Shown here piece after piece: positions 12,642 through 51,833 of a DNA stretch of 64,000 bases (positions are counted from its first letter, which is position 1; the number at the start of each line of letters is the position of its first letter). The position numbers and the translations under genes are program-made. Location of the stretch: NCBI GenBank assembly GCA_027306995.1, contig DAHUXS010000013.1:248001-312000 (forward strand). The letters are read 5' to 3'. Below the pieces are notes generated by a model. It did not search any database and was not told where the DNA came from. It saw only the letters and a list, made by a program, of their open reading frames with translations. This DNA comes from Lysobacter sp. (GTDB taxonomy: Bacteria > Pseudomonadota > Gammaproteobacteria > Xanthomonadales > Xanthomonadaceae).

Positions 12642-12668
12642 TGCCGTCACCGGCTTAGGGGGCCTTGA

Positions 12669-13717: not shown

Positions 13718-13788
13718 GAGAAATCCGAAGGTTGCGCGAGCGGACGGCGATTGTCGCCCAGCGCGGGCTTCCGCGCCATGCAGCTCGA

Positions 13789-14211: not shown

Positions 14212-14220
14212 GGCGCCATC

Positions 14221-14694
14221 CTACTCCGGCCCGATTTGATCGGGCACGACCGCGACGTAGCGCGACTCCATGCTGGTCGCGACGCGGCCATCGCTGCGCC
14301 GCACCTCGGCCCGGACCTGGAAGGACACCCGGCGCTTGTCGCCGAGCTCCCGCAGGACGGCATCGGCAGCGAACGATTCCGCGAACTGCGCGCGGGCATC
14401 GAGATCGTCGTACAGCGGCGCGCGGTATTTCACCTGGGAATCAGCGACGTAAACCTCGGCCTGGATGCCGCGGCGTTCCAGCCATGCCGTGACCAGTCCC
14501 CAGCCGGCCAGCGTCATCAACGACACCAGGCTGCCACCGAACGCGCAGCCCTTGTCGTTGATGTTGGCCGCGAGCGGCGCATGCAGATTGCAGCGGTCGT
14601 CATCGAGTTCGGTCAACCGCGGCTGCAAGGCCGCGACCGGCGGCATGGCGTGCAACAGGCCTTCGATGTGGGCGGAAAGTTCGGTCTCGGACAT
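14221..14694 (-). CDS. YiiD C-terminal-type hotdog thioesterase
   Basis: 157 residues. The hotdog-fold signature is 'NINDKGCAFGGSLVSLMTLAGWGLV' (around residues 45-69), where the conserved Asn/Gly and Gly-Gly line the acyl-CoA site in YiiD_C/PaaI relatives; 'VKYRAPLYDDL' follows. Likely an acyl-CoA thioesterase with unknown substrate. The ATG at 14694 was picked because the fold begins there; the open frame extends far upstream as antisense of hemD and is not real. Confidence 0.75.
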   Translation of the reverse strand: MSETELSAHIEGLLHAMPPVAALQPRLTELDDDRCNLHAPLAANINDKGCAFGGSLVSLMTLAGWGLVTAWLERRGIQAEVYVADSQVKYRAPLYDDLDARAQFAESFAADAVLRELGDKRRVSFQVRAEVRRSDGRVATSMESRYVAVVPDQIGPE

Positions 14695-14715
14695 CGGGTA
14701 TGCGATTCTTGGCGG

Positions 14716-16736: not shown

Positions 16737-16737
16737 C

Positions 16738-18015: not shown

Positions 18016-18104
18016 GGCAAAGCTTCCGTGGCAGGCCGTGCCTGCGATACTGGCAGTCTAGTCGCGCCTTCGGCGCTTGCAAACCCTACCGTATGGAGAC
18101 CCGA

Positions 18105-33769: not shown

Positions 33770-33788
33770 TAGGTTAACGGGTTACAGA

Positions 33789-33925
33789 AGGAAGCGGGCG
33801 CGATTGCTCGCGCCCGCCTCTCGACACTCCTTGTCTTCTTACTCCCTCAGCGGAGCTTCGGCCGGACAAAGCTGCATCCTGCAGCCCCTCCCGAGTCCGG
33901 CCGTCGCCCTCATGGACAACTCCCC
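33789..33925 (-). ncRNA. Candidate GGA-loop RNA (CsrA/RsmA-binding sRNA or structured leader)
   Basis: Read on the minus strand, hairpins carry GGA in their loops: GCTGCA-GGA-TGCAGC (33871-33885) inside an outer stem GGCCGGAC/GTCCGGCC (33860-33902), CTCC...GGAG (33842-33855), and GACA-AGGAG-TGTC (33823-33835). Additional GGGAG and GGGGAG motifs are in the same strand. The last hairpin (33794-33817, 10-base stem) is followed by TTCCTTCT and can act as a terminator. Several GGA loops in about 135 bases, with an end hairpin, is how Rsm/Csr sRNAs look. Alternatively it is the leader of the acyltransferase mRNA. Only the sequence pattern supports this. Confidence 0.45.
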
Positions 33926-33930
33926 GCTCA

Positions 33931-33959
33931 TAGATAAATAACGGATTCCGATCGCAAAA
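33931..33959 (-). promoter_or_regulatory. Candidate sigma-70 promoter of the GGA-loop RNA / acyltransferase operon
   Basis: On the minus strand TTTTGC (33959-33954) and TATCTA (33936-33931) stand 17 bases apart. The -10 element matches at four positions, the -35 weakly. Transcription would start near 33925. Confidence 0.4.
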
Positions 33960-34008
33960 CCCGACATTGGCTTGCCCGGACGGCCCCGATGGACGCAGAA
34001 TCAATGGG

Positions 34009-34560
34009 ATGAAGCGGTCCGACCCCCCAGCCGATGGCCTCCGGGACGGTCCGCTCGCAGGGGGGGGCTCGGGATGGCCGGACGTCTATGCGGCAGCCTA
34101 TGAGGACCTGAAGCGGGCGGCCCACCTGCAACTGCGCCGCTCTTCCCGCGCCTTCGATACCACGGCCCTGGTCAACGAGACCTTCCTCAAGCTGTCGAGC
34201 GAGGGCGCACTCAAGCCCGAAGATCGCCGCCAGCTGCTGGCCCTGTCCGCGCGCGCGATGCGCCACGTCCTGGTGGACGAGGTGCGCCGACTGCACGCCG
34301 GCAAGCGCAAGGGCGAACAGGTCACGCTGGTCACCCAGATCGGCGGCCCGGACCCGGCCTTCGGCGTGCTGGAGGTGGACGAGATGCTGGCGACCCTGGC
34401 CCAGGCCGATCCGCGCGCCGCCTCGGTAGTGGAATTGCGTTGCTTCGGTGGCTACACCGAGGAGGAGATCGCCGAATTGCTGGTGATCACCACCCGCACC
34501 GTGCAGCGTGACTGGCGCAAGGCCCGCGCCTTCCTGATCGCGCAACTGGCCAACGAATGA
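34009..34560 (+). CDS. ECF RNA polymerase sigma factor, ECF43/TIGR02999 type (pair 1)
   Basis: 183 residues with sigma2 and sigma4 regions. Region 2.2 reads FDTTALVNETFLKL (49-62): a Thr-Thr pair at 51-52 replaces the acidic DAED motif normally used to contact core polymerase. In ECF43 factors such as Vibrio EcfP, a Thr here is phosphorylated by a partner kinase to activate the factor. Sigma4 carries 'FGGYTEEEIAELLVITTRTVQRDWRKARAFL'. It overlaps the kinase gene by 4 bases (ATGA). The ATG at 34009 is chosen over a TTG at 33967. Confidence 0.9.
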   Translation: MKRSDPPADGLRDGPLAGGGSGWPDVYAAAYEDLKRAAHLQLRRSSRAFDTTALVNETFLKLSSEGALKPEDRRQLLALSARAMRHVLVDEVRRLHAGKRKGEQVTLVTQIGGPDPAFGVLEVDEMLATLAQADPRAASVVELRCFGGYTEEEIAELLVITTRTVQRDWRKARAFLIAQLANE

Positions 34561-37343
34561 CCACGAACGCCAGCCGCCTGCAACGCGCGCTGGCGCTGTT
34601 CGAGGCGGTGGCCGACCTGCCTGCGGACGAACGCAAGCGCCTACTGGACGAGGCCTGCACCGACGACCCCGAACTGCGCAGAACGGTCGAGGCCATGCTG
34701 CTGGCGGACCGCACCGCCGACAGCCTGCCGACCGAACCCTCGGCATGGCTCGATGGAAGCTCGTCGCCACCGGTGGACGACAACGAAGACATTTCCGCGC
34801 TGCGTTTCGGACCATGGCAAGTGACCGGCGTACTCGGCCGCGGCGGCATGGGCGCGGTGTATCGCGTCGAACGCGCCGATGGCGCCTACCAGCAAAGCGC
34901 GGCGCTCAAGCGCATCCGCATGGGGCTGGATACCGGCGACGCGCAGCAACGCTTCCTGCGCGAACGCCAGATCCTTGCAACGCTTCGCCATCCCAACATC
35001 GCGCGCCTGATCGACGGTGGCGTCGCCGGCGAAACGCCCTACTTCGCGATGGAACTGGTCGAGGGCGAACGCATCGACCGCTGGTGCGACACCCGCAAGC
35101 TCAACCTGCGCGATCGCGCGCAACTGTTCCTGCAGGTGCTGGACGCGGTGAGCGAGGCGCATCGCAACCTGATCGTCCATCGCGACCTCAAGCCATCCAA
35201 CGTGCTGGTCGATGATGGTGGCCAGGCCCATTTGCTCGACTTCGGCATCGCCCAATTGCTCGAGGAAGACGCAGACGCCACGCAGACGCAACATCGCGCC
35301 TTCACTCCCGATTTCGCCTCGCCCGAACAACTACGCGCCGAACCTGTCACCACCGCGTCCGACGTCTACCAGCTTGGCGTGATGCTCTACCTGCTGATCT
35401 GCGGCCGCCATCCGTTCGGGATGGAAGCCGACACGCCCTGGCATCGCAAGATCGCCTTGCTCGATCGCCCCGCGATCCCGCCGTCACGAGCGCTCGACGG
35501 CAATGCCGCGGCCGAACGCGGCGGAACGCAAAAAACCCTGTCGAAACAGATTTCAGGCGATCTCGAAGCCATCCTGCTGCGCGCGATCGCGCGCGTGCCG
35601 AGCGCGCGCTATCCCTCCGTCGATGCCTTCCGCAGCGACCTGCGCGCGTGGCTGGATGGGTATCGCGTGCAGGCGCGCCTGCCCAGTCGACGCGAACGCC
35701 TGATGCGGATGATCCGCCGCAACCGCCTGCTGTTCGCCGCGGGCACGGCGGTGATCGCGGCACTCACGGTCGGCCTCGGCGTCGCCCTGCTGGAGGCACG
35801 GCGCGCGCATCGCAGCGAAACCGTCGCCCTGCAGCAGCAATCGCTGGCGGAACACAATGCGCGCCAGTCCGCGGCGATCCAGGAAACCTTCGAACGCATG
35901 TTGATGCACGCGATGGCGGTGGACGGCGGCCGCAAGACCACCGTGCGCGAAATGGCCGATGGTGCCATGCGCAGCGTCGATACCAAATCCGGGCGCGGGG
36001 ACGAAGCCCGCATCTCGTTGCTGCTCGACCTCATCCATGTCTATACCGTTGCCGGCCAGAAGGACGGCGCGCGCGAAATGCTGCAGAAGGTACGCCCGCA
36101 GGCGATGGCGATGGCCGCGGACCAACCGGTGTTCGCATTCCGCATCAAGGCGCTGGAAGCCGACCTACTGGAAGAAACCGACCCGGACAAGATCCCGCGT
36201 TATCGCGACGCGTATGCATTCGCCGGAAAGTGGATCGGCAAGGCCGACGAATCATCGTTCGAGAGCGTCCGGGCCTCGATCATCAATTATCTGTATTCGC
36301 TCGACTGGCGCGGCATGTCGATCGAGCAAAATACCGTTGCCAGTCAAATCCACGCGATGACGCTCGCACGCTACGGCGAGCAGAACCCGCGCACGGTCCA
36401 GATGGCCATGTCGTATGCGCGCGCGCTGGCCGCCATTGGCCGCCATCGCGATGCGGACCGCATGCTGCAACAGCAATTGGCGCTGACCTCCAGTCATTTC
36501 GGCGCCAGCGGGCAACTCGCCATCAGCTCGCAATCCATGATGATCGGCAACGAGATTTCAATCGACGGTCGCTGGCCACGCGCCGAGTCCGAGCTGCACG
36601 ACCTGTTGCAGAAATACCGCGATCGCCACGCCGATGTTCTCGGCGTGCACAAAGTGAAGTCGCGAATCATGCTAGTTCGCCTGCTGCAGCGGGAACGCAG
36701 GGATGCCGAAGCCCACGCCGAACTGGCACGCATCGAATCGGATCTCGCGATGGCGATGGGCGACGATATCGATGAGATGCATCTCGACCTGCTAGTGCTT
36801 CAGTCCGAACAGGCCTGGAACGAAGGAAATGCATCGAAGTCGCTCGAGCACGCCGAGGCCGGACTGCTGATCCCGTGGAAGCCGCTCGCATACGACGACG
36901 CCACTTCCCACAACGCTGCACTGTTCTCGGCTGCACGCGCCCAGGCGGCGCTGGGTCGGTGCAAGGCCGCGACGCGCCGGGTCGCCGAAGCCCTGCAGAT
37001 TCGTGCCAGCTTCACCCAGCGACTGGATTTCACCTCGGACTGGACGCGGGCAGCGGACGTCGAGCGCGTTTGCGGCCAACCTGATGCCGCGCTGAAACTC
37101 GCGCGCCTTGCTTCCAACAATGTCTCACGCCTGTCGGAGCCCGACAGCTGGCGCATCGGCACCGTCCAGCTTGCGCTCGCGCGTGCACTGGTCGCAGCCA
37201 ACCAGCCTGGAAGCGCATCCGCCTATCAGCGCGCCGATACCGCATTCGCGCGCCTGATCCCCGCGACGCACCCATATCGCGTGGCGATTGCGACGGAATA
37301 CAAGACGGTCGATCTGCCGCACACCAGTGAAGCACCGTGGTGA
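34557..37343 (+). CDS. Membrane Ser/Thr protein kinase with TPR-like sensor half (pair 1)
   Basis: 928 residues. An N-terminal helical region (1-80, 'LPADERKRLLDEAC') is followed by a Hanks-type kinase: G-loop GRGGMG (94-99), Lys118, HRDLKPSN (208-215), DFG (228-230), 'SPEQLR' and 'ASDVYQLGVMLY'. One membrane segment spans about 390-412, and the remaining 515 residues are helical and TPR-like, expected in the periplasm. All catalytic residues are present. Overlap with the sigma gene makes it that factor's probable activator, by analogy with PknT/EcfP and PknS/EcfK. Confidence 0.92.
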   Translation: MTTNASRLQRALALFEAVADLPADERKRLLDEACTDDPELRRTVEAMLLADRTADSLPTEPSAWLDGSSSPPVDDNEDISALRFGPWQVTGVLGRGGMGAVYRVERADGAYQQSAALKRIRMGLDTGDAQQRFLRERQILATLRHPNIARLIDGGVAGETPYFAMELVEGERIDRWCDTRKLNLRDRAQLFLQVLDAVSEAHRNLIVHRDLKPSNVLVDDGGQAHLLDFGIAQLLEEDADATQTQHRAFTPDFASPEQLRAEPVTTASDVYQLGVMLYLLICGRHPFGMEADTPWHRKIALLDRPAIPPSRALDGNAAAERGGTQKTLSKQISGDLEAILLRAIARVPSARYPSVDAFRSDLRAWLDGYRVQARLPSRRERLMRMIRRNRLLFAAGTAVIAALTVGLGVALLEARRAHRSETVALQQQSLAEHNARQSAAIQETFERMLMHAMAVDGGRKTTVREMADGAMRSVDTKSGRGDEARISLLLDLIHVYTVAGQKDGAREMLQKVRPQAMAMAADQPVFAFRIKALEADLLEETDPDKIPRYRDAYAFAGKWIGKADESSFESVRASIINYLYSLDWRGMSIEQNTVASQIHAMTLARYGEQNPRTVQMAMSYARALAAIGRHRDADRMLQQQLALTSSHFGASGQLAISSQSMMIGNEISIDGRWPRAESELHDLLQKYRDRHADVLGVHKVKSRIMLVRLLQRERRDAEAHAELARIESDLAMAMGDDIDEMHLDLLVLQSEQAWNEGNASKSLEHAEAGLLIPWKPLAYDDATSHNAALFSAARAQAALGRCKAATRRVAEALQIRASFTQRLDFTSDWTRAADVERVCGQPDAALKLARLASNNVSRLSEPDSWRIGTVQLALARALVAANQPGSASAYQRADTAFARLIPATHPYRVAIATEYKTVDLPHTSEAPW

Positions 37344-37365
37344 TGCGGCAGGTGTCGCGATTGCC

Positions 37366-37629
37366 TTAGCCGTGGCAAATATTGCACTGCGGATTGCTAT
37401 CGCCCGTCAGCGATTGCATTTTCGGTGCGGTTTTGCCCCCATGCAGGATCAAGATCGCCTGGGTAAGCAATGAACGGTCCTGGTTGTCAACCGCAGTCGC
37501 GCTTGCCTTCGGTGGTGCCGACGCTTCGGGTTTCCTCGCGGCTTCCCTGGTGTCGGTGGCCGCGTCGGCCAGCGCACCGACGCTCATCATCCCCAACACC
37601 ATCGCGCAGAGCAGTGAACGCTTGAACAT
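37366..37629 (-). CDS. Small exported protein ending in a CxxCH motif
   Basis: 87 residues. Signal peptide MFKRSLLCAMVLGMMSVGALA, an Ala/Lys/Pro-rich linker, and a C-terminal end that reads PQCNICHG, with Cys82, Cys85 and His86. The CxxCH motif attaches heme c, but here it is only one residue from the C-terminus and no distal Met domain follows. It could bind heme or another metal as a tiny c-type protein, or be a remnant of one. GGAGG lies 8 bases before the ATG. Confidence 0.6.
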   Translation of the reverse strand: MFKRSLLCAMVLGMMSVGALADAATDTREAARKPEASAPPKASATAVDNQDRSLLTQAILILHGGKTAPKMQSLTGDSNPQCNICHG

Positions 37630-37712
37630 TGCGTGATCCTCCCTCGAGATTGTTCGGACGCTATACCAGCCCGACCATCTCCGCAACTTGAACGCGCGGA
37701 AACGCCCTGGCG

Positions 37713-38279
37713 TCAGCGCGGCCGCTCGAAGACTTGGAACGCCAGGTCGCGGGGCCACGGATACCACGACAGCAACGACACGCCATTGATCACGAAGGCC
37801 TGTCCGCCCGCATAGCTGTCACCGGCCGGACCGGGCCAGAGCATGCACGCGCCACCGATCGCCTCGACGGTGAAGGCATAGTCGTCGGCGCGCATCAGCC
37901 GCGACGACTGGAATTCCACCATGCGCATGCTCTGCATGCCGTTGGCGGACGTCCATGAATCCAGCACATAACCCGGCACATCCTGCGTCGCCAGCACCGT
38001 GCCGGACGGCATGCCATTGCGCAGGGACTGGAGGGTCACCCGCACGCTCGTGGCCGTGGAGCAGTTGATCGGCAACATGATGTGGCTGACCACGCCCGTT
38101 CGCGGCAGGTTGAAGGTCTGTGCGTATTTGAAATTGGCATTCCCGTTCTGGCCCAGCACGAAACCACCGGTATTGAAGTCGTGCATCACCTGCTCGGCCG
38201 CCACCTCGGGTGGAACGGTCTGCGCCATGACGGGCGCGGTCGCGGATGTCAGCAACAGGAAGAGGAATTGCTTGTGCAT
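37713..38279 (-). CDS. Exported protein of unknown function
   Basis: 188 residues. Signal peptide ends near PVMAQ. The mature part is beta-rich, e.g. 'FKYAQTFNLPRTGVVSHIMLPINC' and 'DDYAFTVEAIGGACMLWPG', reminiscent of jelly-roll lectin-like domains, but I cannot name a family. It lies 31 bases after the RCC1 gene and is likely the last gene of the adhesin operon. Confidence 0.7.
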   Translation of the reverse strand: MHKQFLFLLLTSATAPVMAQTVPPEVAAEQVMHDFNTGGFVLGQNGNANFKYAQTFNLPRTGVVSHIMLPINCSTATSVRVTLQSLRNGMPSGTVLATQDVPGYVLDSWTSANGMQSMRMVEFQSSRLMRADDYAFTVEAIGGACMLWPGPAGDSYAGGQAFVINGVSLLSWYPWPRDLAFQVFERPR

Positions 38280-38310
38280 GGAAGTCTCCTTTGTGTGTGG
38301 TTGGTCGGAA

Positions 38311-39633
38311 TCAGTGTTCGAGCACGACGGGCGCTTTTACGTTCGGCCTGCGTCCGGGCGCGACCGGAATCGGCGTCCCCCAGTGCCACAAGCGACCGTC
38401 GCCAGTGGTGGCGAACACGCGATAGCCACCGGCATTGATGTTCACCACCTTCGCCAGCGACGGAATCCGCGTCGGCGACATGTGATAGCCACCGGAGGTC
38501 CCGACGCCGATTTCGCCGTAGCCATCGAAGCCCCAGGCGCGCAGGCTTCCATCGCCCAGCAGCGCGAGCGCGAAACCTTCTCCGGCCGCAATGGCGCGCG
38601 CGTTCGCCACGCCGTTTACTGCAACGGGCGTGAGCGCATTGCCGTCCGCACTGCTGCCTCCGCGCCTGCCATTGCCCAGCATCGCGCTCTGGTTGGATCC
38701 CCAGGCCCGAACGCTGCCATCGCGCTTCAGCGCCAGCGATGTCTGCAATCCCGCGGCAATGGCGACGACGTCTTCCAGTCCCGGCACCACGGCAGGTGCG
38801 GCCGGCGCACCGGCAGATCCGTTGCCCAACTCGCCGCGACTGTTGCCACCCCATGCATAGACGCGGCCATCGCGTCCAAGCGCGAGACTGTGCCGCGCGG
38901 CAGTCGCCACCTGCGCAATCGTGGGCAAGCCCGGCACCCGCGTCACCGCAGCATGCGTGCTTTGCGCATCTCCACGCAATCCGTCGACGTCCTCGCCCCA
39001 GGCGAACACCGCGCCATCGCGACGCAGCGCCAGGGCATGGCCGTATGTCGCGGCGATTTGCATGATGTCGTGCAGGCCCGGAATCGCCACCGGCGCACTC
39101 GCGCCATCACCCGCAGTCCCCAGGGATTGGTAATTGTTCTTTCCCAACCCCATCACGGTGCCATCGTCGAGCAGGATGAAAGCCGTGTATTGATGGACCG
39201 CGGCGCCGACCGCCTTGCGCGACAGCGCGACATGCATCGCCTGTCCGTCGGCTTCGTCCGGCCATGCGGTGACCGAGCCATCTGCATTGACCACGACCGT
39301 GCCCCACGACGCGGCTGCAGCCATCGGCAACTTTGGAATCGACATCGACACCATTTCGCCCGCCGGGCTGTCGCTGGAGGCATCGGCACGGGCCGTGTTG
39401 TCCCGCGCCTGCTTAGCATCATTCCCGCGCTTTCCGTTGTCGCCATCCAGCGCGCTTTCGACCGGCCGGGTGACCGTCTCCTTCGCCTTGTTTTCGACCT
39501 TGTGCGTGATGTCGTCCTGCACCTGTTTCGCGGCGCGCTTCAACCAGCCGCCGACGTCCTGCGCATGCGACTGCGCCGGCGAGACCACAAGCACACACAG
39601 CATCACGGTGATTGCCAGGGAATGTCGTTTCAT
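38311..39633 (-). CDS. Exported RCC1-repeat (beta-propeller) protein
   Basis: 440 residues. Signal peptide MKRHSLAITVMLCVLVVSPAQSHA is followed by a charged helical stretch and about six RCC1 repeats, recognisable by the recurring 'ALALRRDGAVFAWG-x(n)-LG' and 'G...G.G.......P..V..' pattern. RCC1 propellers are typical of eukaryotes and are found in some bacteria. An export signal places it outside the cytoplasm, where it could bind a surface partner or host ligand. Its ATG overlaps the upstream lipoprotein stop (ATGA). Confidence 0.88.
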   Translation of the reverse strand: MKRHSLAITVMLCVLVVSPAQSHAQDVGGWLKRAAKQVQDDITHKVENKAKETVTRPVESALDGDNGKRGNDAKQARDNTARADASSDSPAGEMVSMSIPKLPMAAAASWGTVVVNADGSVTAWPDEADGQAMHVALSRKAVGAAVHQYTAFILLDDGTVMGLGKNNYQSLGTAGDGASAPVAIPGLHDIMQIAATYGHALALRRDGAVFAWGEDVDGLRGDAQSTHAAVTRVPGLPTIAQVATAARHSLALGRDGRVYAWGGNSRGELGNGSAGAPAAPAVVPGLEDVVAIAAGLQTSLALKRDGSVRAWGSNQSAMLGNGRRGGSSADGNALTPVAVNGVANARAIAAGEGFALALLGDGSLRAWGFDGYGEIGVGTSGGYHMSPTRIPSLAKVVNINAGGYRVFATTGDGRLWHWGTPIPVAPGRRPNVKAPVVLEH

Positions 39634-41231
39634 TTCCCCGCTCCGCAGTCGTCGACCTTGGTCCAGATCGCGGTGCCGGTGCGTGCCGGCGTGCACACCG
39701 TCCTGCCTCCGGCATGGCCGCAGGCGCTGGGCGTGGTGTACGTCGCGGTCATTCTTTCCTCGGGACCGCTCAGGGTGTACGTGCCGCTGGCGTCGACCGT
39801 GCCGCCGCCACCCGCGAAGTGCATGGAATAGGTGCCGCCCTTGTCGCCGGTGGGCGTCTGCGTGAGCGTGATGTATTTGCAGACATGCACCGTGACCGGC
39901 TTGTCGAGGTCGCAGACGTCGTAGGACTCGTTGCAGCCACCATTGCCGATCGGCGTGACGCGATAACCGCCTTTCTTGGTATCGAACTGCAAACTCGCCT
40001 TGCCGACGCCGCGCCTGCTGCGCGCCTCGAAGTCGATGGTCGCCGACTGGTCCTTCTTTTCCGGATTCTGGTAGTCGAATTGCGCGTCGGCCGGCACCTT
40101 CTTGTCGCGGGGATTGAGCATGTGTTCGCCGCTCAATGTCGCCTTGACCGTGCCGCGGGTCGGCGCGCCATCGGATTTCGCACGCGGCTCCGCGAACAGC
40201 GTGTACGCCGTGTTCGGCTTCGCTCCCGTGCGCTTGGCGGGATCGCTGCGCACGTCCAGCTTGACGCACCTGCCGGATTCCCAGGCTTTCTTCGCCGCAT
40301 CGAGTGCACTCATCGCGGCCATGCGGCCGACCGTCGCCAATCCTTTCGCCAACTGCACGTCTTCGTCGCTCGTGCCGTGACTGCGGCCGTTCACCTTGGC
40401 GCCCATCTCGCCACGGCTGGTGGACAGCGCATCACTCACATCCACATGGCTTCCGCTGCCGGTGGTCTGTTCGACATGCACGTCGGAATCCATGTCGTCG
40501 TCGATCAGGTTGGCATCGTCGTCGAGATGCTTGACCAGATTCGAAGTGACCTTGGTTTGCGCGCTGCCGTCACCGCCGCTGAGGTCGGAGGTTGATTCGA
40601 ACTCGACCTCGATCTTGCCCTGCGCATCGGGGCAAGCGATCGACTTGACCTTGGTGACGACCTTGCCTTTCAGTCCCTCCGGCATGTTGCCTTCGAATGT
40701 CGTGGTCGTGGTGTAACTGTTCTCTGTCCAATCCACCTTGGCGGTTCCATCGGAATTGGTATAGGAGCCCGATGTTTTGCCATCCTCTTGCGCCTGCTCC
40801 CAGGCCTGTTCTCCCGCCGCGTTCTGGATGCCGGCAGTCACCGAAGACGCCGCCATGCCGCCAACTCCGGCATAACCGCCACTGCCCAAGCCTCCGCCAC
40901 CACCGGATCGCTTGTCGAACAGCGTCGGCAGTTCCGCCGCGAATGCGCGACTCTTCTGCTCATACAACACGAACAACCCCTGTAATGCCGCGTCCGCCTT
41001 GGCTTCGCCACCAAGCACGGCATCCAGCCCACCTGCTTTCATCAGGCTGCGCGCTGCCGGATATTCGATCTTTGTGATTTCGCGCGCGGTCGCATCCACC
41101 CCCTGCTTCTGCCAGCGCGCGAATTCCGCGTTGGCCTGGGCGACGCCGGCGCTCGCCGGCGACTTCGATGACGAGCACGCCGCCATCGTCACGATGGCGG
41201 CCAGTACTGTGATGCCCTTGAACTTGTGCAT
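39630..41231 (-). CDS. Large lipoprotein of unknown function
   Basis: 533 residues. Lipobox MAAC (Cys19). There is a Gly-rich stretch ('SGGGGGLGSGGYAGVGG', about 110-125), an acidic stretch ('HLDDDANLIDDDMDSDVHVE'), and a Cys-containing C-terminal part with several Cys pairs ('CNESYDVCDLDKPVTVHVCKY', 'CGHAGGRTVC'). No family recognised. It is translated with the RCC1 gene and sits 21 bases after the 411-residue gene, so it probably works with them at the outer membrane. Confidence 0.72.
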   Translation of the reverse strand: MHKFKGITVLAAIVTMAACSSSKSPASAGVAQANAEFARWQKQGVDATAREITKIEYPAARSLMKAGGLDAVLGGEAKADAALQGLFVLYEQKSRAFAAELPTLFDKRSGGGGGLGSGGYAGVGGMAASSVTAGIQNAAGEQAWEQAQEDGKTSGSYTNSDGTAKVDWTENSYTTTTTFEGNMPEGLKGKVVTKVKSIACPDAQGKIEVEFESTSDLSGGDGSAQTKVTSNLVKHLDDDANLIDDDMDSDVHVEQTTGSGSHVDVSDALSTSRGEMGAKVNGRSHGTSDEDVQLAKGLATVGRMAAMSALDAAKKAWESGRCVKLDVRSDPAKRTGAKPNTAYTLFAEPRAKSDGAPTRGTVKATLSGEHMLNPRDKKVPADAQFDYQNPEKKDQSATIDFEARSRRGVGKASLQFDTKKGGYRVTPIGNGGCNESYDVCDLDKPVTVHVCKYITLTQTPTGDKGGTYSMHFAGGGGTVDASGTYTLSGPEERMTATYTTPSACGHAGGRTVCTPARTGTAIWTKVDDCGAGK

Positions 41232-41252
41232 GGATTCCCCTCCGGAATGGAA

Positions 41253-42488
41253 TCAGTTCCTGCGGAACAGTCCCTTCAGCAACTTCTTCGCACCGCTTTC
41301 CTGCGGCTGCTCGCCCTGCGGTTGGTCGCCGCGTTGTTGCCGCATGCCCGACATGTCGACGCCGAGCAGCGCAGTGGCGGTGGACTTGGTGCGCACGCGC
41401 ACGTTCCATTCCGGATTCCACGCCTGCTTGGGATTGGCCGGTCGCGGCGGGTACGCGATGTTGGTTTCCGGCCCGTAGGCGATCATGTTGAGCGCGCCCA
41501 TGCCCTGCTTGCCGCCTTCGCCGGCGAAGATGCCCTTCGGGATCGCGCAATGGCTGGCGGTGGTCGGCAGCAACACTTTCTGCTTCACCCACTTGTCCAC
41601 GCTGGAGCCCGGCAGGTAGTTGAGCAATTCGGCGCCGGCGCCCGCCACCTCCGAACTGCTCCAGACCACGAAGTGGTGTTCGTCCTGCATCGCCATCGCT
41701 GCGAGGAAATAGCCGCGCGCACGCGCCACCGGCTGCCATGACGCATCGATGCTGTCGCTCATCGCGCCGCGCGTGGACAGCGCGATCTTCGGCATGAAGT
41801 CGGCATCCGCGCCGAGATCGAACTTCAGCGATTCCGGCACGCCATTGCCGCTGATGCGATGCGTTCCCACCATGGAAGCGTCATCGGAGACGCGCTTGTC
41901 GTTCTTCTGGTTCGGCCACAGCGCGTACTTCGGCTCGGCATCGATATCGCGGTCGGGAACGAACACGCCGGGCGCAAGACCGCCTTCCGCGCTGGCCTTG
42001 CCGCCCTTCATCCGCGCCGTCAGCACCTTGGGCTGGCCAGGCCGCACGTTCGCCCCGCAGCCCCAATACTGGCGGATGGTAACTTCGACGTCCTGCACCT
42101 TGTCCGGGGCGTATTGCCTTCTGCTTTCCTCGGTCGGTGGCGGCAGCAACGGCAACGACTTGCCGATATCGAGTCCCGCCGGCACCCAGTCTTCCGCGGC
42201 GATACCTGGCTTCAAGCTGTTGTACATGGCGATGTCGAGCAACTTGCCTTGGGTGGCGGGCACCTTGCGCGATTGCGGATAGCCTTGCGGTCCATTGCCA
42301 CCCGCCATTTTCCGCATCATGAAACCGCCGAGCCCGCCCATGTCGGGCATGCCGGCCATGCTGTGGGTGGCGACATCGATCCATACCTGCGTTTTCGGTG
42401 CGGATGGTGCGCTGCCGGCGGGTAGAACAACGAAGGCAGTAGCGGCTGCGAGCGCGGTGACGCGCAACAAACATTGACGTGCGTGCAT
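41253..42488 (-). CDS. Exported protein of unknown function with Met/Gly-rich segment
   Basis: 411 residues. Signal peptide at the N-terminus, no lipobox. A Met/Gly-rich segment 'HSMAGMPDMGGLGGFMMRK' lies near residue 45. 'VTIRQYWGCGANVRPGQP' and 'FFLAAM...HHFVVWSSSEVAG' are the most structured-looking parts. The ATG at 42488 is preferred, with AGGAGG at an 8-base gap; the earlier ATG at 42494 is too close. It lies 25 bases after the adhesin stop, so it is in its operon. Confidence 0.72.
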   Translation of the reverse strand: MHARQCLLRVTALAAATAFVVLPAGSAPSAPKTQVWIDVATHSMAGMPDMGGLGGFMMRKMAGGNGPQGYPQSRKVPATQGKLLDIAMYNSLKPGIAAEDWVPAGLDIGKSLPLLPPPTEESRRQYAPDKVQDVEVTIRQYWGCGANVRPGQPKVLTARMKGGKASAEGGLAPGVFVPDRDIDAEPKYALWPNQKNDKRVSDDASMVGTHRISGNGVPESLKFDLGADADFMPKIALSTRGAMSDSIDASWQPVARARGYFLAAMAMQDEHHFVVWSSSEVAGAGAELLNYLPGSSVDKWVKQKVLLPTTASHCAIPKGIFAGEGGKQGMGALNMIAYGPETNIAYPPRPANPKQAWNPEWNVRVRTKSTATALLGVDMSGMRQQRGDQPQGEQPQESGAKKLLKGLFRRN

Positions 42489-42513
42489 GTCCATTCCCTC
42501 CTGATGGGTGCGC

Positions 42514-45500
42514 TTACCAGCCAAAGCCGCCGCCGACGCCGACGGATTTGTCTCCGCCGCTGAAAGCGCCGCCGATGGTCAACGTGGCGCGATCACTGAT
42601 GGCGCGCTGGTAGCCGATCGACAACGCCTTGCGCCCGTTCTGGAATCCCGCGCCGACACCCACGCGGTTCTGCGTGCGGATGCCCGACAGGCTCGAACTC
42701 ATCGTCGCCATCGCGGTGCCCATCGCACCCATGGTGTCGATGCGGCGATCGGTCTGGTGGAAACGTCGATCCATGTCGGTGCGCAACTGGTCGAAGCCCG
42801 CGGTGGAGAAGGTGGAGAATTTGGCGTCGGTATAGGCCTTGGCCGACGACAGCGTGGCGGCATCACCGGATTTCATCTGGCTGACGTTCACGGCATCGGT
42901 ATCGGCCGTACCGGCGGCAACATGGATCACCTGATGCTCCGCACCGGTGGCGCCAACCGACACCGCGTAATCGCGATCTGCCACGGACTGATAACCGATG
43001 GCGGTACTGCCGACGTTCAACGCCTGCGACTGGAAACCGACCGCGGTGCTCTGGTTGCCGCTGGCGGTATTGCCGGCACCGATCGCGCTGCTGTTCACGC
43101 CGCTGGATTTGTTGAGCAATCCCATTGCAACGGTGCTGCTGCCGCTGGCGGTATTGAAGCGCCCGAATGCCGTGGTGCCGTCGCCGTCGGCAACATTCGT
43201 ATCGCCGTAGGCCGCGGCATGTTCGCCGGTCGCCTGGTTATTGATGCCGACTGCATGGGCAAACGTCGCGCTTGCGGTATTGGAGACGCCGAAGGCGCCG
43301 CTCCAGTCGCCGCTGACGGTGTTGTTGCTGCCGACGGCGGTGCTGCCATTGCCGCTGGCGGTACTCGGGCCAACTGCGGTGGCATCCGTCCCGCTGGCCC
43401 CATCGTTGTTGTAGTTGGGCGCGGAACTGTTGCTGGAATTGACGCTGAAGAAATGCGATGTGGCGCTGCCACCCGTGCCCGTTCCGCTGCCCAAGGCGGT
43501 CAGCTTGCTATCGACCGCCGCAAACGCCGAAGCGACATCGCCGTAGCTCGCACCCTGGATGGTGAACGTCGGCGCGGTGAACACGCCGCCGGAGGAGCTG
43601 GCACCGCCGCCAAACCAGTTCACCAACGTGTTCAACTGGCTCACGTTCACCGCGTCGGTATTGTTGATGCCGGCAGCGACGTGAACCAGGCGGGCGTTGA
43701 GATCGCTGCCGAAGGGAACGCCATAGGCGGTATCCATGTCACCCGCCGCGTGGCCGAAGGACACCACGCCGGATTCCGTTGCAACCGCCTGGTAACCGAT
43801 CGCCGTGCTCTTGTCCGCCGAGGCGATGCTGTCGTAACCGAGCGCGCTGCTGAATTCGCCGCTCGCCGTGCTCACGTAACCGAACGCGCTGCTGCCACCG
43901 CCACTGGCCGTGCTGGCATTGCCGAACACGCTGCTGGCATCTCCGCTGGCGGTATTCCAACCGCCAACTGCACTGGCGCCGACGCCACTCGCGACATTGC
44001 CAATGCCGAACGCGCTGCCTTCCTCGCCGCTGGCGGTGCTGCCCACGCCGACTGCCGTGGCGGAGTTGCCCTTGGCCCACACGCCCGTCCCCACCGCCAC
44101 TGCGCTGTTGCCGCTGGCGATGGCGGTATGGCTGTTGGCATCGTTGATGCCATCGCCGTCGAGATCGAGATCGTAGTCCGTCGGCGAACCTTCGACCTGG
44201 AAGAACGTCGAGACCGCCAAGCTGCCCTTGCCGGTCGCCAAGCCATATGCACCCAGCGCGGAACCGTACTCGCCGCTGGCGCGGCTACCGATGCCGACCG
44301 CGGACGCATTGGCACCCGTCGCGCCGTCATTGTTGTAATTGCCGGCAGTGGTGTCGGTGGAGTTGACGCTGAAGAAATGCAGCGGCGTGCCACCGCCGCC
44401 GCCCACACCTGCGATGGCCGCGTTCAACTGGCCCAGGTTCACGGCATCGGTTGCTTGCGTACCGGCGGCGACATGGATGATCTGGCGTTCCGTGCCGGTC
44501 TGTCCGACGGAAACCGCGTAATCGCGATCGGCGATCGCCTGGTAACCGATCGCGGTGCTCCCGGTATTGAGCGCCTGTGACTGGTAGCCGAAGGCGCTGC
44601 TCCACTGGCCATTGGCGATGTTGCCATTGCCGAACGCGTTGCTGCCGGGGCCGCCAGCGGTATTGCTGGTGCCGAATGCATTGCTGATGTCGCCATTCGC
44701 GGTGTTGCCGATGCCGAAGGCATTGCTGCTCCTGGCGTTGGCGTTGATCGTATTGCCGCTGCCGAAGGCATTGCTCTCGCCAAAGTAATCGGCGAGCGCG
44801 ACGTTATTGCCGCTACCGAAGGCGTTGCCGATGGTGGCGTTGTTGCCGCTGCCGAAGGCGTTGCCGTCGCTGGCGGTGTTGCTGCTGCCGAAGGCCTGGC
44901 TGCCGCCTTCACCGCCATTGGCATGGTTGTTGAAGCCCACGGCATTGCTTTCACGCATGACCGTTTCGTTGCCGAAACCAAAGGTGCTGCTGCGATCGCC
45001 ACGCGTGGTGTTGTTCACGCCCACGGCGGTGTCGTAGTTGTAGCCATTCGCGCCCGCCACGACGCCCGCGCCCAGCGCAACGGAAGAGGTGCCAGCGGCC
45101 ACGGCGGTTTCGCTGGAGGCATCCATCGTGCCGTCGTTGTTCAGATCGAGATCGAAATCCACCCCGCCGTTGTTGTTGCGGTCGTAGAACGACGATATCG
45201 CCAGGCTGTATGCACCCCGGGCCTGTCCCCGGTAACCGAAGGCGCTGCTCCACAGACCGGTGGCGAGGTTGAGCACGCCGAAGGCATTGCTGGCCACGCC
45301 GATCGTGGTGTTGCCCCAGCCGAATGCATTGCTGGAAATGCCGCTGGCATTGTTGCCGTTGCCGTAAGCACTGGTATCCGCAAAGCAGGTGGCATTGTCG
45401 GTGCCGTGCTCGTTGCCCTGGTTGGTCGATGGCGCCGGCGTGACCGGATTGCCGTTGGCATCCAGGCAAGGACCATCTGCGGCAAACACCGGCATCGACA

Positions 45501-45570
45501 TCGCGCCCAGCAGGGCCAGGCTCAACACGGACAGGACCGGCAGCGGCCGGCGACGGTGATTCGATTTCAT
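42514..45570 (-). CDS. Trimeric autotransporter adhesin (YadA-like), larger copy
   Basis: 1018 residues. Signal peptide (MKSNHRRR...PVFA), then long head regions made of 14-residue YadA/Hia repeats (pattern ASG..S.AFG..N.A, .A.A.G..A), two 'FFSVNS...NYNNDGA' modules, a short neck/stalk with 'DAVNVSQL' connectors, and a C-terminal YadA anchor of four strands ending GVGGGFGW. Three identical chains would form the barrel and display the head for adhesion. Two inserts contain Asp/Asn-Gly loops (e.g. DLNNDGTMD near residues 142-150). It is 170 bases from the second copy, from which it clearly duplicated. Confidence 0.93.
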   Translation of the reverse strand: MKSNHRRRPLPVLSVLSLALLGAMSMPVFAADGPCLDANGNPVTPAPSTNQGNEHGTDNATCFADTSAYGNGNNASGISSNAFGWGNTTIGVASNAFGVLNLATGLWSSAFGYRGQARGAYSLAISSFYDRNNNGGVDFDLDLNNDGTMDASSETAVAAGTSSVALGAGVVAGANGYNYDTAVGVNNTTRGDRSSTFGFGNETVMRESNAVGFNNHANGGEGGSQAFGSSNTASDGNAFGSGNNATIGNAFGSGNNVALADYFGESNAFGSGNTINANARSSNAFGIGNTANGDISNAFGTSNTAGGPGSNAFGNGNIANGQWSSAFGYQSQALNTGSTAIGYQAIADRDYAVSVGQTGTERQIIHVAAGTQATDAVNLGQLNAAIAGVGGGGGTPLHFFSVNSTDTTAGNYNNDGATGANASAVGIGSRASGEYGSALGAYGLATGKGSLAVSTFFQVEGSPTDYDLDLDGDGINDANSHTAIASGNSAVAVGTGVWAKGNSATAVGVGSTASGEEGSAFGIGNVASGVGASAVGGWNTASGDASSVFGNASTASGGGSSAFGYVSTASGEFSSALGYDSIASADKSTAIGYQAVATESGVVSFGHAAGDMDTAYGVPFGSDLNARLVHVAAGINNTDAVNVSQLNTLVNWFGGGASSSGGVFTAPTFTIQGASYGDVASAFAAVDSKLTALGSGTGTGGSATSHFFSVNSSNSSAPNYNNDGASGTDATAVGPSTASGNGSTAVGSNNTVSGDWSGAFGVSNTASATFAHAVGINNQATGEHAAAYGDTNVADGDGTTAFGRFNTASGSSTVAMGLLNKSSGVNSSAIGAGNTASGNQSTAVGFQSQALNVGSTAIGYQSVADRDYAVSVGATGAEHQVIHVAAGTADTDAVNVSQMKSGDAATLSSAKAYTDAKFSTFSTAGFDQLRTDMDRRFHQTDRRIDTMGAMGTAMATMSSSLSGIRTQNRVGVGAGFQNGRKALSIGYQRAISDRATLTIGGAFSGGDKSVGVGGGFGW

Positions 45571-45648
45571 GGTTTTCCCCTCGGAATGACGTCGGCGGAA
45601 TGCCGGCCTCGTACTTGGGTATGCGCAATCCGGTGGCGAAACCGGTCA
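45571..45648 (-). promoter_or_regulatory. Upstream block of adhesin 1, duplicated at adhesin 2
   Basis: This 78-base block is nearly the same as 47748-47823. On the minus strand both contain TGACCGGTTTCGC, then about 12 bases on a TTGCGCATACCC / TTTCGCATACCC element, and CATTCCG twice just before the ribosome site GAGGGGAAA. The first two elements are spaced like a -35/-10 pair. The block starts right after the adhesin 2 terminator. Confidence 0.55.
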
Positions 45649-45654
45649 TCCCCC

Positions 45655-45684
45655 GAAAAGAACCAGGGCGCCGAAGCGCCCTGG
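45655..45684 (-). terminator. Rho-independent terminator of adhesin 2
   Basis: On the minus strand CCAGGGCGC-TTCG-GCGCCCTGG (45684-45663) has a perfect 9-base stem with a stable UUCG tetraloop, followed by TTCTTTTC. It lies 57 bases past the adhesin 2 stop and just upstream of the adhesin 1 promoter block. Confidence 0.85.
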
Positions 45685-45740
45685 CGATCTGCTCATGGCC
45701 GACCCCGTCAAGGGAGGGGAGCCTTCACGGCAGCCGGCAG

Positions 45741-47747
45741 TCACAGATCCAGACCGAAACCGGCACCTGCGGTGCCCTTGCCGCCACTGAAGGCCGCGCC
45801 GAAGCTGATCGAACCGCGACCGACGCGCACGCCATAGCCGACCGAAATCGCCTTCTGTCCGCTGGTCACGCCGAAGCCCACCGCAACGCGCCCGTTCTTC
45901 GATCCGCCATTGGCGGCATTGGCGCTCATCTGCGTCATGGCGGTGGCCATCGACGACATCTGGTTGATATGGCGATCGGTCTGGTAGAAGCGCTGGTTCA
46001 CTTCGCCACGGAACTGGTCGAATCCCTGCGACAGGCCGTTGAGCTTCGAGTCGGTATAGGCATTCGCGGCGGTCAGGGTCGATGCCGACTTTGCTTCGGT
46101 GTACGACTTCGATGCAGTGAGGGTGGCGGCATCGCCTGCGGTCATGTCGGTGCGAATCGCAGCTTCGCGGCCATCGGTATAGGCGTTCGCGGCACCGACT
46201 GCATTGTTCGCGGTCGCCAACGCGGTATCCGCCGTGGCCTGCGCTGCATCCGCCTTGGTCACCGCGATATTGGCCGTTGCCTGTGCCGCGTTGGCCGCCG
46301 TCAACGCCGTATTGGCGGTGGACTGCGCGGTGGCGGCGTTCGTCAGCGCGGTATTGGCGGTCGATTGCGCCGCGGCGGCATTGCCATTGGCCGTGGCAAG
46401 ACCGGCATCGAGTTGCCCTTTGTTCACGGCATCGGTGGCGACAACGCCATTGGCAACGCCACCCACCACGTTGCCGCCCATGTTGACGACAGTGTTGTTG
46501 ACGATGGTGAAGCTGCCACCTGCTCCACCCACGGTCAGGCCGGTGAATGTCGGCGCGCTTGCGAATCCATAGGTGATCGTGTTGCCGCTGCGACTTGCCG
46601 TCAGGTTGCCGTTGGCATCGCTCGTCCTGAAGTCCACCGTCTCGCCGCTACCGACGACTTTCGCGACGCCACCATTCGCACTCAGGCTCCAGCCGGCATA
46701 GCCGCCGATGCCCGAGATGGCGGCATTCAACTGGCCAAGATTCACCGCGTCGGTATCCGCGGTGCCGGCGGCGAGATGGATGATCTGGTGTTCGTCACCA
46801 GTCTGGCCCACGGAGATTGCGTAGTCGCGATCGGCGATTGCCTGATAGCCAATTGCCATGCCACCCGTGTTCAAGGCTTGCGAGCTGTAACCGAATGCAC
46901 CGCCCCACTGGCTACTGGCCGTATTGAAGCTGCCGATGGCCGTGCTGTTGAGGCCCGAGGCCGTATTGCCGATGCCGAAACTGCTGGCGCCGCTCGTGCT
47001 GGACAGATTGTTCACACCCACCGCGCTGGCAACCGAAGCGGTCGCTTGCACGCCCGCGCCCACGGCGACCGAGCTGGTTCCGGTGGCACTCGCGGTTTCG
47101 CTGGAGGCGACACCCGAGATGTCGAGATCTTCGTGGCCGTTGCCGTTGCGGTCGAAGAAGCCTGCCAGCGCCACGCTGCCAATGCCGGTCGCATAGCCGC
47201 GCAAACCGATCGCGGTGGCGTATTTCGCGCTGCGGCTCCACAAGCCAAACGCGTTGCTGTAATCGCCGGTGGCATAGTTGCCATCGCCGAAGGCGCTGGA
47301 ATCCTGGCCCAGGGCCGCGTTGTTGTGGCCGAAAGCATTGCTGCTGACGCCCGTCGCGCTGTTCGATACCCCGAACGCACTGCTTTCCCATTCACCGGCG
47401 GTGTTCTGGTAGCCAAAGGCATTGCCGTATGCGCCGCTGGCGATATTTTTCGCGCCAAATGCACTGGCGGCCTCGTTCAATGCGCTGTTCTCCCAGCCGA
47501 ACGCATTGCTGATGTCGCCACTGGCGTTGTTGTACTGGCCGAAGGCACTGGCGAACATGCGGCAGGTCGTGTTGTCGCCGCCGCCTTCGCTGCCCTGGTT
47601 GGTGCTGGGCGGCGGCGACATGGTGCTGCCATCCGGATTCTTGCAGGGATCATCAGTGGCGAATGCCGGCAACGACATCGCGCTCAACAGGGCCAGCGCA
47701 AGAATGGACAGCACCGGCGATCGCCGGTGACGACGGTTGGGCTTCAT
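45741..47747 (-). CDS. Trimeric autotransporter adhesin (YadA-like), smaller copy
   Basis: 668 residues. The signal peptide and N-terminal 60 residues parallel the larger copy, with a shared 'PSTNQG' segment and 'DN-x-TC' pair. One head of YadA repeats, a single insert with DRNGNGHEDLD, then a coiled-coil stalk with alternating 'AAQSTANTALT' heptads (about residues 440-500), and a C-terminal anchor ending GAGFGLDL. The stalk distinguishes it from copy 1, which has more head. It is divergent from the second sigma factor gene. Confidence 0.93.
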   Translation of the reverse strand: MKPNRRHRRSPVLSILALALLSAMSLPAFATDDPCKNPDGSTMSPPPSTNQGSEGGGDNTTCRMFASAFGQYNNASGDISNAFGWENSALNEAASAFGAKNIASGAYGNAFGYQNTAGEWESSAFGVSNSATGVSSNAFGHNNAALGQDSSAFGDGNYATGDYSNAFGLWSRSAKYATAIGLRGYATGIGSVALAGFFDRNGNGHEDLDISGVASSETASATGTSSVAVGAGVQATASVASAVGVNNLSSTSGASSFGIGNTASGLNSTAIGSFNTASSQWGGAFGYSSQALNTGGMAIGYQAIADRDYAISVGQTGDEHQIIHLAAGTADTDAVNLGQLNAAISGIGGYAGWSLSANGGVAKVVGSGETVDFRTSDANGNLTASRSGNTITYGFASAPTFTGLTVGGAGGSFTIVNNTVVNMGGNVVGGVANGVVATDAVNKGQLDAGLATANGNAAAAQSTANTALTNAATAQSTANTALTAANAAQATANIAVTKADAAQATADTALATANNAVGAANAYTDGREAAIRTDMTAGDAATLTASKSYTEAKSASTLTAANAYTDSKLNGLSQGFDQFRGEVNQRFYQTDRHINQMSSMATAMTQMSANAANGGSKNGRVAVGFGVTSGQKAISVGYGVRVGRGSISFGAAFSGGKGTAGAGFGLDL

Positions 47748-47823
47748 GGTTTCCCCTCGGAATGGCGCCGGCGGAATGCCGGTCTCTCTGGGGTATGCGA
47801 AACTCGACCGCGAAACCGGTCAC
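47748..47823 (-). promoter_or_regulatory. Upstream block of adhesin 2, duplicated at adhesin 1
   Basis: See 45571-45648: the same TGACCGGTTTCGC, CGCATACCC and tandem CATTCCG elements are found here, reading towards adhesin 2. This block is also the region directly before sigma factor 2 on the plus strand, so a divergent promoter must share it. Confidence 0.55.
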
Positions 47824-47838
47824 GCCGAGGGGGTCGTC

Positions 47839-48392
47839 GTGGAATCCGTTCCGTCCGCAGAAGTCACTGTCCTGCTTGCCCGCGCCCGCGCGGGCGATGC
47901 CGTTGCGCTCGGCGATGCCTACGCTGCCGTGTATGGCGAACTCAAGCGCGCCGCGCGCCTGCAGCTGCGGCGCATGCGCGATCCCATCGAGACCACGGCC
48001 CTCGTCCACGAGGCCTATCTCAAGCTGAGCGGATCGAGCCTGTCGGCCGCCGATCGCAATCACCTGCTGGCATTGTCCGCGCGTGCGATGCGCCAGGTGC
48101 TGGTGGACGACGCCCGCGCGCGCAAGGCCGACAAGCGCGGCGGTGGCCAGGAATTGCTGTCGCTCACGGCGGCGGCGAATTCCGGCGAGCTCGCCGCGAT
48201 CGAGGTGTTGAAACTCGATGACCTGCTGGAAGCGCTGCACGCGCTGGACGAGCGCGCGGCGCAAATCGTCGAACTGCGCTATTTCGGCGGCTATACCGAG
48301 CCCGAGATCGCCGACATGCTCGACATCAGCGAAAGCACCCTTCGTCGCGACTGGCGCCGCGCCCGCGCCTTCCTGTTGAAAGAGATGACGTC

Positions 48393-48396
<4 letters not shown>
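47839..48396 (+). CDS. ECF RNA polymerase sigma factor, ECF43/TIGR02999 type (pair 2)
   Basis: 185 residues, close in plan to the first copy. Region 2.2 is IETTALVHEAYLKLS with Thr-Thr at 52-53, where acidic residues are expected; sigma4 reads 'FGGYTEPEIADMLDISESTLRRDWRRARAFL'. The GTG at 47839 follows GAGGGGG by 6 bases; the open frame extends upstream but lies in the shared adhesin promoter. It overlaps the second kinase by 4 bases. Phosphorylation by that kinase is inferred from the ECF43 precedent. Confidence 0.9.
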
Positions 48397-50801
<2,405 letters not shown>

Positions 50802-50831
50802 ACTCTGCTCCCCTTTCAATCCCCGATACCG

Positions 50832-51833
50832 ATGCGCGCCGCTTTCGCAACCGCCCTGTTCGCCACCCTGCTCACCGCCTGCGCCAGCGCGCCGAAGACC
50901 GACACCCGCGCGCATGCTGTGCCCGTCACGGTCGCCCCGGTGAAAGTGGGCATCGCGCTGGGTGGTGGCGCAGCCAAGGGCTTTGCCCACATCGGCGTGA
51001 TCAAGATGTTGGAAGCCAACGGCATCACCCCGGTGGTGGTCTCCGGCACCAGCGCTGGCAGCGTGGTCGGCGCGCTCTACGCCAGCGGCATGGATGCCTA
51101 TGCCATGCAGGAAAAAGCATTCGCGCTGGACGAATCGCGCATCCGCGACGTCAGCCTGTTTTCCGGCGGCGTGGTGAAGGGCCAGAAACTGCAGGATTAC
51201 GTGAACGGACTGGTGGGTGGCCGCAGCATCGAGATGTTGCGCAAGCCGTTCGCCGCCGTGGCGACGAACCTCGCGAATGGCGAACGCACCGTGTTCGTGC
51301 GCGGCAATACCGGGCAGGCGGTGCGTGCATCCAGCTCGATTCCGGGCGTGTTCGAGCCTGCCGTCATCGGCAATGCGCGTTACGTCGATGGCGGCGTGGT
51401 CAGCCCGGTGCCGGTGGACGCCGCGCGCGAACTCGGCGCCGACTTCGTGATCGCGGTCGACATCAGCAGCAAGGCCGATGGCAGCGCGTCAAACGGCAGC
51501 ATGCTCGGCAACATCAACCAGAGCATCAAGATCATGGGCCAGAAACTGGGCGCGCAGGAACTCGCGCGTGCCGACATCGTGATCCGCCCGAAGGTGAACG
51601 ATATCGGCGCCGCCGATTTCGAACAGAAGAACCGCGCCATCCTGGAAGGGGAACGCGCCGCGCAAGCCGCGCTGCCGCAGATCCGGGCGAAACTGGCCGC
51701 ATTGCAAAACGCGCGCCAGGCCAAGGCGCAACAGGCCGTCGACGCGCGCGCCGAGCAGGCGCGCAAGGCACGCTGCGCACAGCAGGGCTGGATGGACAAG
51801 CTGCGCCGCGATCCGGAATGTCGCGTCGATTGA
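50832..51833 (+). CDS. Patatin-like phospholipase lipoprotein
   Basis: 333 residues. Lipobox LTAC (Cys17). The catalytic dyad is Ser in GTSAGS and Asp in VDGGVVSP; the oxyanion loop is 'GGGAAKGFAHIGV'. An RssA-like acyl hydrolase anchored at a membrane. A C-terminal coiled stretch (ALQNARQAKAQQAVDARAEQA) follows. Proximity to the kinase suggests it is in that operon. Confidence 0.9.
   Translation: MRAAFATALFATLLTACASAPKTDTRAHAVPVTVAPVKVGIALGGGAAKGFAHIGVIKMLEANGITPVVVSGTSAGSVVGALYASGMDAYAMQEKAFALDESRIRDVSLFSGGVVKGQKLQDYVNGLVGGRSIEMLRKPFAAVATNLANGERTVFVRGNTGQAVRASSSIPGVFEPAVIGNARYVDGGVVSPVPVDAARELGADFVIAVDISSKADGSASNGSMLGNINQSIKIMGQKLGAQELARADIVIRPKVNDIGAADFEQKNRAILEGERAAQAALPQIRAKLAALQNARQAKAQQAVDARAEQARKARCAQQGWMDKLRRDPECRVD

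Follow-up and report, generated by a model that had tools for sequence, protein, structure and literature searches.

Two predicted ECF43-type sigma factor/kinase switches flank a trimeric adhesin gene set in Lysobacter sp.: a shared promoter-like element and a candidate structured RNA

According to published accounts, the sigma factors of group ECF43 lack part of the acidic motif of region 2.2 and are activated by kinase phosphorylation of a conserved threonine (PMC13147305, PMC8999054). For EcfK/PknS from Xanthomonas citri, the sigma factor gene is reported to lie beside that of a membrane Hanks-type kinase, with a threonine in region 2.2 and an adjacent surface-related gene set, the type VI secretion system, under its control (PMC13147305, PMC6653060). 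Linker sites have also been reported for EcfK. For EcfP/PknT from Vibrio parahaemolyticus, the published work describes a kinase-activated sigma factor without the acidic DAED motif, which functions in the polymyxin response and is phosphorylated at the second threonine of STTA (PMC8999054). In this report, we describe two gene pairs of the same kind from Lysobacter sp. They are found in a window of 64,000 nucleotides, which is the whole stretch of DNA that was analyzed (assembly GCA_027306995.1, contig DAHUXS010000013.1, positions 248,001 to 312,000). The predicted target differs from that of EcfK/PknS in being a set of adhesins rather than type VI secretion, and the regulons are predicted to be local, in contrast to the polymyxin response of EcfP/PknT. 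The region 2.2 motif also differs; it is QATE in EcfK and either DTTA or ETTA in the window, where, unlike in EcfP, one acidic residue (D or E) is retained at the first position, directly before the two threonines. Within the titles and opening lines of abstracts that were searched, there was neither an ECF43 pair that controls adhesins nor an RNA driven by ECF43. No ECF43 promoter sequence is given in the portions covered of the literature on EcfK, EcfP, and the ECF43 factor of Hyphomonas neptunium, and such a motif may already be published elsewhere. The explanation that we consider quite probable is that the window encodes two kinase-gated, locally acting sigma switches, with sigma2 directed to the adhesins and sigma1 to an RNA. 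The features are collected in Table 1.

Table 1. Positions of the genes, promoter-like elements, and candidate RNA within the window
Feature	Position	Strand	Remarks
Candidate small RNA, or acyltransferase leader	33786..33929	-	predicted three-way junction and two further hairpins
Sigma1-type promoter-like element TGTCGGGTTTTGCGATCGGAATCCGTTATT	33937..33966	-	faces away from sigma1
Sigma1	34009..34560	+	ECF43-like sigma factor, motif DTTA
Kinase1	34557..37343	+	membrane Ser/Thr kinase, large C-terminal domain
CxxCH protein	37366..37629	-	small, exported, C-terminal CNICHG; homologues in L011-L014
P11	37713..38279	-	exported, family not assigned; homologues in 7 other loci
RCC1-like propeller	38311..39633	-	exported
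P9	39630..41231	-	lipoprotein-like, family not assigned; recurrent near sigma2-type pairs
P8	41253..42494	-	exported, family not assigned; recurrent near sigma2-type pairs
Adhesin B	42514..45570	-	trimeric autotransporter, 1018 aa; YadA_head and YadA_stalk above cut-off
Promoter-like element TGACCGGTTTCGCCACCGGATTGCGCATAC	45619..45648	-	before adhesin B
Adhesin A	45741..47747	-	trimeric autotransporter, 668 aa; YadA_stalk above cut-off, YadA_head below
Promoter-like element TGACCGGTTTCGCGGTCGAGTTTCGCATAC	47793..47822	-	precedes adhesin A, within the 91 bp up to sigma2
Sigma2	47839..48396	+	ECF43-like sigma factor, motif ETTA
Kinase2	48393..50801	+	membrane Ser/Thr kinase, TPR C-terminal domain
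Patatin-like phospholipase	50832..51833	+	flanking gene, cassette border

An earlier note on this DNA had proposed that two ECF43-like sigma/kinase pairs with 4-base overlaps bracket a minus-strand set of exported proteins with two trimeric adhesins, and the gene set was found to be as described. Sigma1 and sigma2 both score above the cut-offs of Pfam Sigma70_ECF and NCBIfam TIGR02999, a model that we take to correspond to ECF43. Each sigma gene overlaps a Hanks-type Ser/Thr kinase gene by 4 bp (34557-34560 and 48393-48396), which is the gene arrangement of ECF43, and the region 2.2 threonines of this group (consensus QTTA instead of the acidic DAED) are present in both. Translation of sigma2 most likely begins at GTG 47839, judging from the same register of the starts of its relatives. 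With this start the two threonines are Thr52 and Thr53, and the pair is invariant in 17 of 17 sigma2-type proteins. Both kinases contain a Pkinase domain, and a reading of the translations by eye located GxGGMG, HRDLKPSN, DFG, and SPE, together with a single hydrophobic stretch near residue 400, in each of them. The TPR matches that follow this stretch are strong for kinase2 and below the cut-off for kinase1, and the anatomy of the two proteins fits that of a receptor kinase. The pairing of kinase and sigma factor in the window is inferred from adjacency; a kinase was found in 38 of the 40 loci L031-L070. The genome of 2.83 Mb has 10 matches to Sigma70_ECF, and two of the four strong ones (E below 1e-28) are sigma1 and sigma2. 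The named relatives of sigma2 come from Thermomonas, Luteimonas, Pseudoxanthomonas, Arenimonas, Dokdonella, and others, and the genome of the window appears, by similarity, to be related to Thermomonas. Weak matches in the family, near 1e-18, may be EcfK.

The block between the two pairs encodes seven exported proteins on the minus strand, and adhesin A begins 91 bp from the divergent start of sigma2 (47747 and 47839). Adhesins A and B share head and stalk repeats and a signal-peptide-like start (by eye) with the YadA-type trimeric autotransporter adhesins. They differ in the predicted control by a kinase-gated sigma factor. For the anchor domain, no Pfam match was obtained at E 0.001, and the alignment of adhesin B reaches the end of the BimA models with a score below the cut-off. 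No family in Pfam or NCBIfam was matched by P8 or P11 at the thresholds used, and the Pfam matches of P9 and the CxxCH protein are all below the cut-off. The segment from 37366 to 50801 behaves as one cassette between kinase1 and the patatin gene. Versions of it occur in G002 and G007, and it is absent from G006 (locus L018), where the patatin gene directly follows kinase1. A clean empty site was not found in the nine genomes of the genus that are without sigma1 (L171-L175 and L177-L180), in which the 15-16 kb that surround the patatin gene yielded no mnmG, acyltransferase, or sigma gene.

The regions upstream of the two adhesins in the window have ACCGGTTTCGC-N10-CGCATA in common, and there is no other exact match to this sequence in the genome. 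The consensus before adhesins that are linked to ECF43 genes is bipartite, TGTCcGgtTT-N13-CGcATA, and the same bipartite element precedes adhesins of other genera. It was found within 130 bp of the start in 17 of 33 ECF43-linked adhesins (1.42 expected) and in none of six unlinked adhesins (0.2 expected), and 15 of the 17 matches are located 74-88 bp before the start. The strict scan left 16 of the 33 linked adhesins without the element, although approximately five of these (L031, L034, L035, L051, and L068) do have it, the start codon having been missed by the script. Two adhesins belong to neither group: that of L017, with an element found by eye and no sigma gene detected, and that of L026, with no element and a distance of ~3.3 kb to the ECF43 gene. 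That the element goes with the adhesin, and not with the sigma gene, is seen from adhesin B, from L046 (its second adhesin), and from L049, L056, and L059, where it is carried far from the start of a sigma gene.

The same pattern was counted from the side of the sigma genes. A divergent TGTC-N19-CG is present no more than 300 bp upstream of 28 of 63 ECF43 genes (those of the window and of L011-L070), versus 3.7 expected from shuffles, and the same pattern on the same strand is found for five of the 63; the versions with TGAC or TGAA (sigma2 of the window, L011, and L032) were left uncounted. The -10 part of the element varies with the type of sigma factor. It is CGCATA for sigma2-like genes (CGCATG in L037) and CGTTAT for sigma1, with CGCATG in L035b, L044, and L045 and GCGAG in L046, L047, and L051. 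For 25 pairs of sigma factor and element, which were chosen for having the element and from which near-duplicates and weaker sites (such as L015, L052, and L058) were left out, the Mantel r was 0.64, with none of 5000 permutations as high. It was 0.58 when pairs of different genera were compared and 0.81 for those of the same genus. Given the relatedness of the loci, independence is overstated by the shuffle and Mantel figures, and shared descent of whole loci would also account for part of the correlation.

The element could instead be an operator or UTR element of some other regulator, and in close relatives the sequence identity does run on into the adhesin leader. We regard this as improbable; the element is bipartite with a spacing from TGTC to CG that is fixed at 19 bp, its distance to the start is 74-88 bp in 15 of the 17 matches, and its -10 part tracks the type of sigma factor. 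Even less probable is that these genes are co-located through descent or the travel of a cassette, without any regulation. The adhesin/sigma2 segment does act as a cassette that is missing from G006, yet the layouts of the loci vary between genera (divergent, convergent, or in the order sigma-kinase-adhesin) and the element is kept before many of the adhesins. A sigma promoter is thus our preferred reading of the element. It provides a concrete proposal for an ECF43 promoter, TGTC-N19-CG with a sigma-specific -10 part.

A few loci have the element and no adhesin. Two elements ending in CTCGATTGG are found beside a sigma2-like gene in L043 (10249 and 11058), and there is no YadA-type adhesin in that stretch. 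Near the first sigma gene of L104 there is another element with the ending CTCGATTGG, again with no YadA-type adhesin, and the divergent gene resembles another exported protein. In L037, a sigma2-like pair has a sigma2-type element on each side (9679 and 13323). Adhesin matches are absent from this genome, which points to targets other than adhesins.

Within the 2.83-Mb genome, the CGCATA-type pattern with no more than one mismatch has two sites, and these are the ones before adhesins A and B. With up to three mismatches there are 21 sites versus nine for the reversed control. For the CGTTAT-type pattern there is one exact match (the sigma1 element), one site with two mismatches, and eight with three mismatches, versus 0 for the control, and none of these ten sites is by the adhesins. 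The distribution suggests a local regulon for sigma2, and because there are so few close sites in the genome, each sigma factor would seem to act mainly on its neighbor. If this local rule holds, targets may be predicted from neighboring genes.

The earlier note had proposed, from position, that both pairs control the adhesin locus. The shared promoter-like element is in favor of this claim for sigma2. For sigma1, the sequence points instead to the divergent RNA, and control of the adhesins by both pairs is probably not so. It is true that both pairs flank adhesins in G000, G002, G007, and G014, and that the -35 parts of the sigma1 and sigma2 elements are alike. Cross-regulation of the adhesin set by the two pairs, or an additional action of sigma1 on the adhesins, is nevertheless unlikely, as the -10 parts differ (CGTTAT versus CGCATA), none of the ten CGTTAT-type sites with up to three mismatches is by the adhesins, and sigma1 and the RNA are retained in G006 without adhesins. 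Moreover, L016, L031, L032, L034, and L039 have an adhesin and a sigma2-type gene with no sigma1-type gene in the stretch examined. Control of either target by the neighboring sigma gene is predicted from position and sequence.

The proposed target of sigma1 lies outside the interval 34009..51833 that the earlier note covered. Six loci of the sigma1 type were found in the genus. Each of them has a CGTTAT element that faces away from sigma1, and the block of ~145 nt downstream of this element is nearly invariant, more so than both flanks (by eye). The z-score of the RNA fold against shuffles was determined to be -5.2, and the last hairpin is GC-rich and terminator-like and is followed by a T-rich stretch. 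For an alignment from six genomes, 99.7% of the cells are paired over the 48 pairs, and pairing falls to 39-50% when the partners are slid. Two pairs in helix 4 are changed on both sides (C-G to U-A and U-A to C-G), and the covariation score was reached by none of 500 shuffles. However, no variation is seen in 41 of the 48 pairs. The count of pairs changed on both sides is not above that of shuffles (168 of 500 as high), nor is that of additional pair types (500 of 500). The fold was also derived from one of the aligned sequences, and the covariation support is therefore real but small.

There was no relevant Rfam match in the 23 kb searched. With stricter filters, which lose weak matches, a model of this RNA (R1) gave more than 160 bits in three of 247 genomes of the family, all beside sigma1, and no strong match in nine other genomes of the genus in the same draw. 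Occurrence beyond the genus was considered and rejected; 19 rows under 30 bits look like chance, and the 17 of them that were examined as loci of ~3 kb contained no ECF43 gene or kinase. A sponge for CsrA/RsmA was also set aside, as the three GGA loop motifs are not above the level of shuffles (2.26, with 196 of 500 as high). So was a peptide-coding reading, since in the alignment (by eye) the stop moves and L018 is without a start codon, and the changes in helix 4 preserve pairing yet alter codons.

The order of genes in G006 is hydrolase, acyltransferase, RNA, sigma1, kinase1, patatin, and mnmG, with neither an adhesin nor sigma2; the sigma1 element and the RNA are thus kept with sigma1 despite the missing cassette. 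In each of the sigma1 loci that were checked, five in number (the window, L011, L012, L013, and L018), the acyltransferase gene comes after the RNA, and the RNA at 33929-33786 may therefore be the 5' leader of this gene rather than an independent RNA. The start of the acyltransferase in the window is ~20-25 bp past the hairpin. We find this possible, though rather doubtful, given that the RNA terminates in a terminator-like hairpin and that in L018 the conserved block stops at the hairpin, with diverging sequence beyond. An independent RNA would make a candidate regulatory RNA under predicted kinase control. A further proposal, possible but less likely than not, is that kinase-gated sigma1 has a single predicted target in the genome, a new and highly structured small RNA that is produced divergently, while kinase-gated sigma2 runs the adhesin cassette, such that surface attachment would be controlled by two envelope signals, one in transcription and one at the level of RNA.

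The earlier note had called for a search for the bracket in other genomes, and had reasoned that its proposal would fail if such pairs never occur next to adhesins in relatives. They do recur there, both within the genus and across several further genera of the same family. The 17 genomes of the genus, for which the lists are complete, contain 35 ECF43-like genes and 18 anchors from adhesins of the query type. No more than 10 kb separates 11 of the 18 anchors from an ECF43 gene (0.46 would be expected by chance), and an anchor is nearby for 10 of the 35 ECF43 genes. Beyond the window genome (G000), the bracket with both types of sigma factor around adhesins is conserved in G002, G007, and G014, and the P8, P9, and RCC1 genes are absent from the stretch examined in G014. 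In G015, the sigma1 pair is accompanied by three adhesin frames, and the second ECF43 pair is a different one.

Outside the genus, 20 loci were taken from the upper end of a list ranked by similarity to sigma2 and 20 from lower ranks (the G065 row was skipped, and L035 comprises two rows). All 40 were picked before their content was viewed, except that G024, G029, and G030 were already known to be without YadA_stalk matches. An adhesin is present in 10 of the 20 loci nearest to sigma2 and in four of the 20 lower-ranked loci; L036-L038 and L040-L042 are sigma2-type loci without one in the stretch. For 80 named ECF43 loci, a set that partly overlaps the unnamed one, the number with an adhesin is seven, and none of these adhesins is in a record named as a phylum other than Proteobacteria. 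Of the 15 named loci closest to the sigma2 type (L091-L105), 10 contain a homologue of P8 or P9; the remaining 65 contain none. YadA-type anchors are common across the family, occurring in 150 of 247 genomes. At least eight of ~150 rows are beside an ECF43 gene (by eye, among the matches listed). Most of the anchors listed have no listed ECF43 gene next to them; the link therefore characterizes a subset of these sigma factors, and it is not a general feature of the adhesin family.

The reactions that we envision for the two switches can be described as follows. Kinase2 would have a cytoplasmic kinase domain, one membrane pass, and an outer TPR domain with which a signal from the envelope or from contact could be sensed. 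Sigma2 would then be phosphorylated by kinase2 in the T-T motif and bind RNA polymerase, and both adhesin genes would be transcribed from the two copies of the predicted promoter TGWCCGGTTT-N13-CGCATA, one of which sits in the gap between adhesin A and sigma2. The exported set behind the adhesins could be transcribed by read-through. Kinase1 and sigma1 are proposed to operate in the same mode on the CGTTAT promoter that faces away from sigma1, leading to the structured RNA of ~145 nt. Adhesins would be a new predicted output for ECF43 pairs.

The third strong ECF43 gene of the genome (C16:445379) has a trimeric adhesin of 2398 aa without the element at a distance of ~3.3 kb; in this stretch (L026, G000:C16:438500-458400), the additional ECF43/kinase pair is at 6859-7548 and the adhesin at 10860-18056. 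The adhesin frame beside the sigma2-like gene of L034 (7623-9577) is split into two in the assembly, and the element is present.
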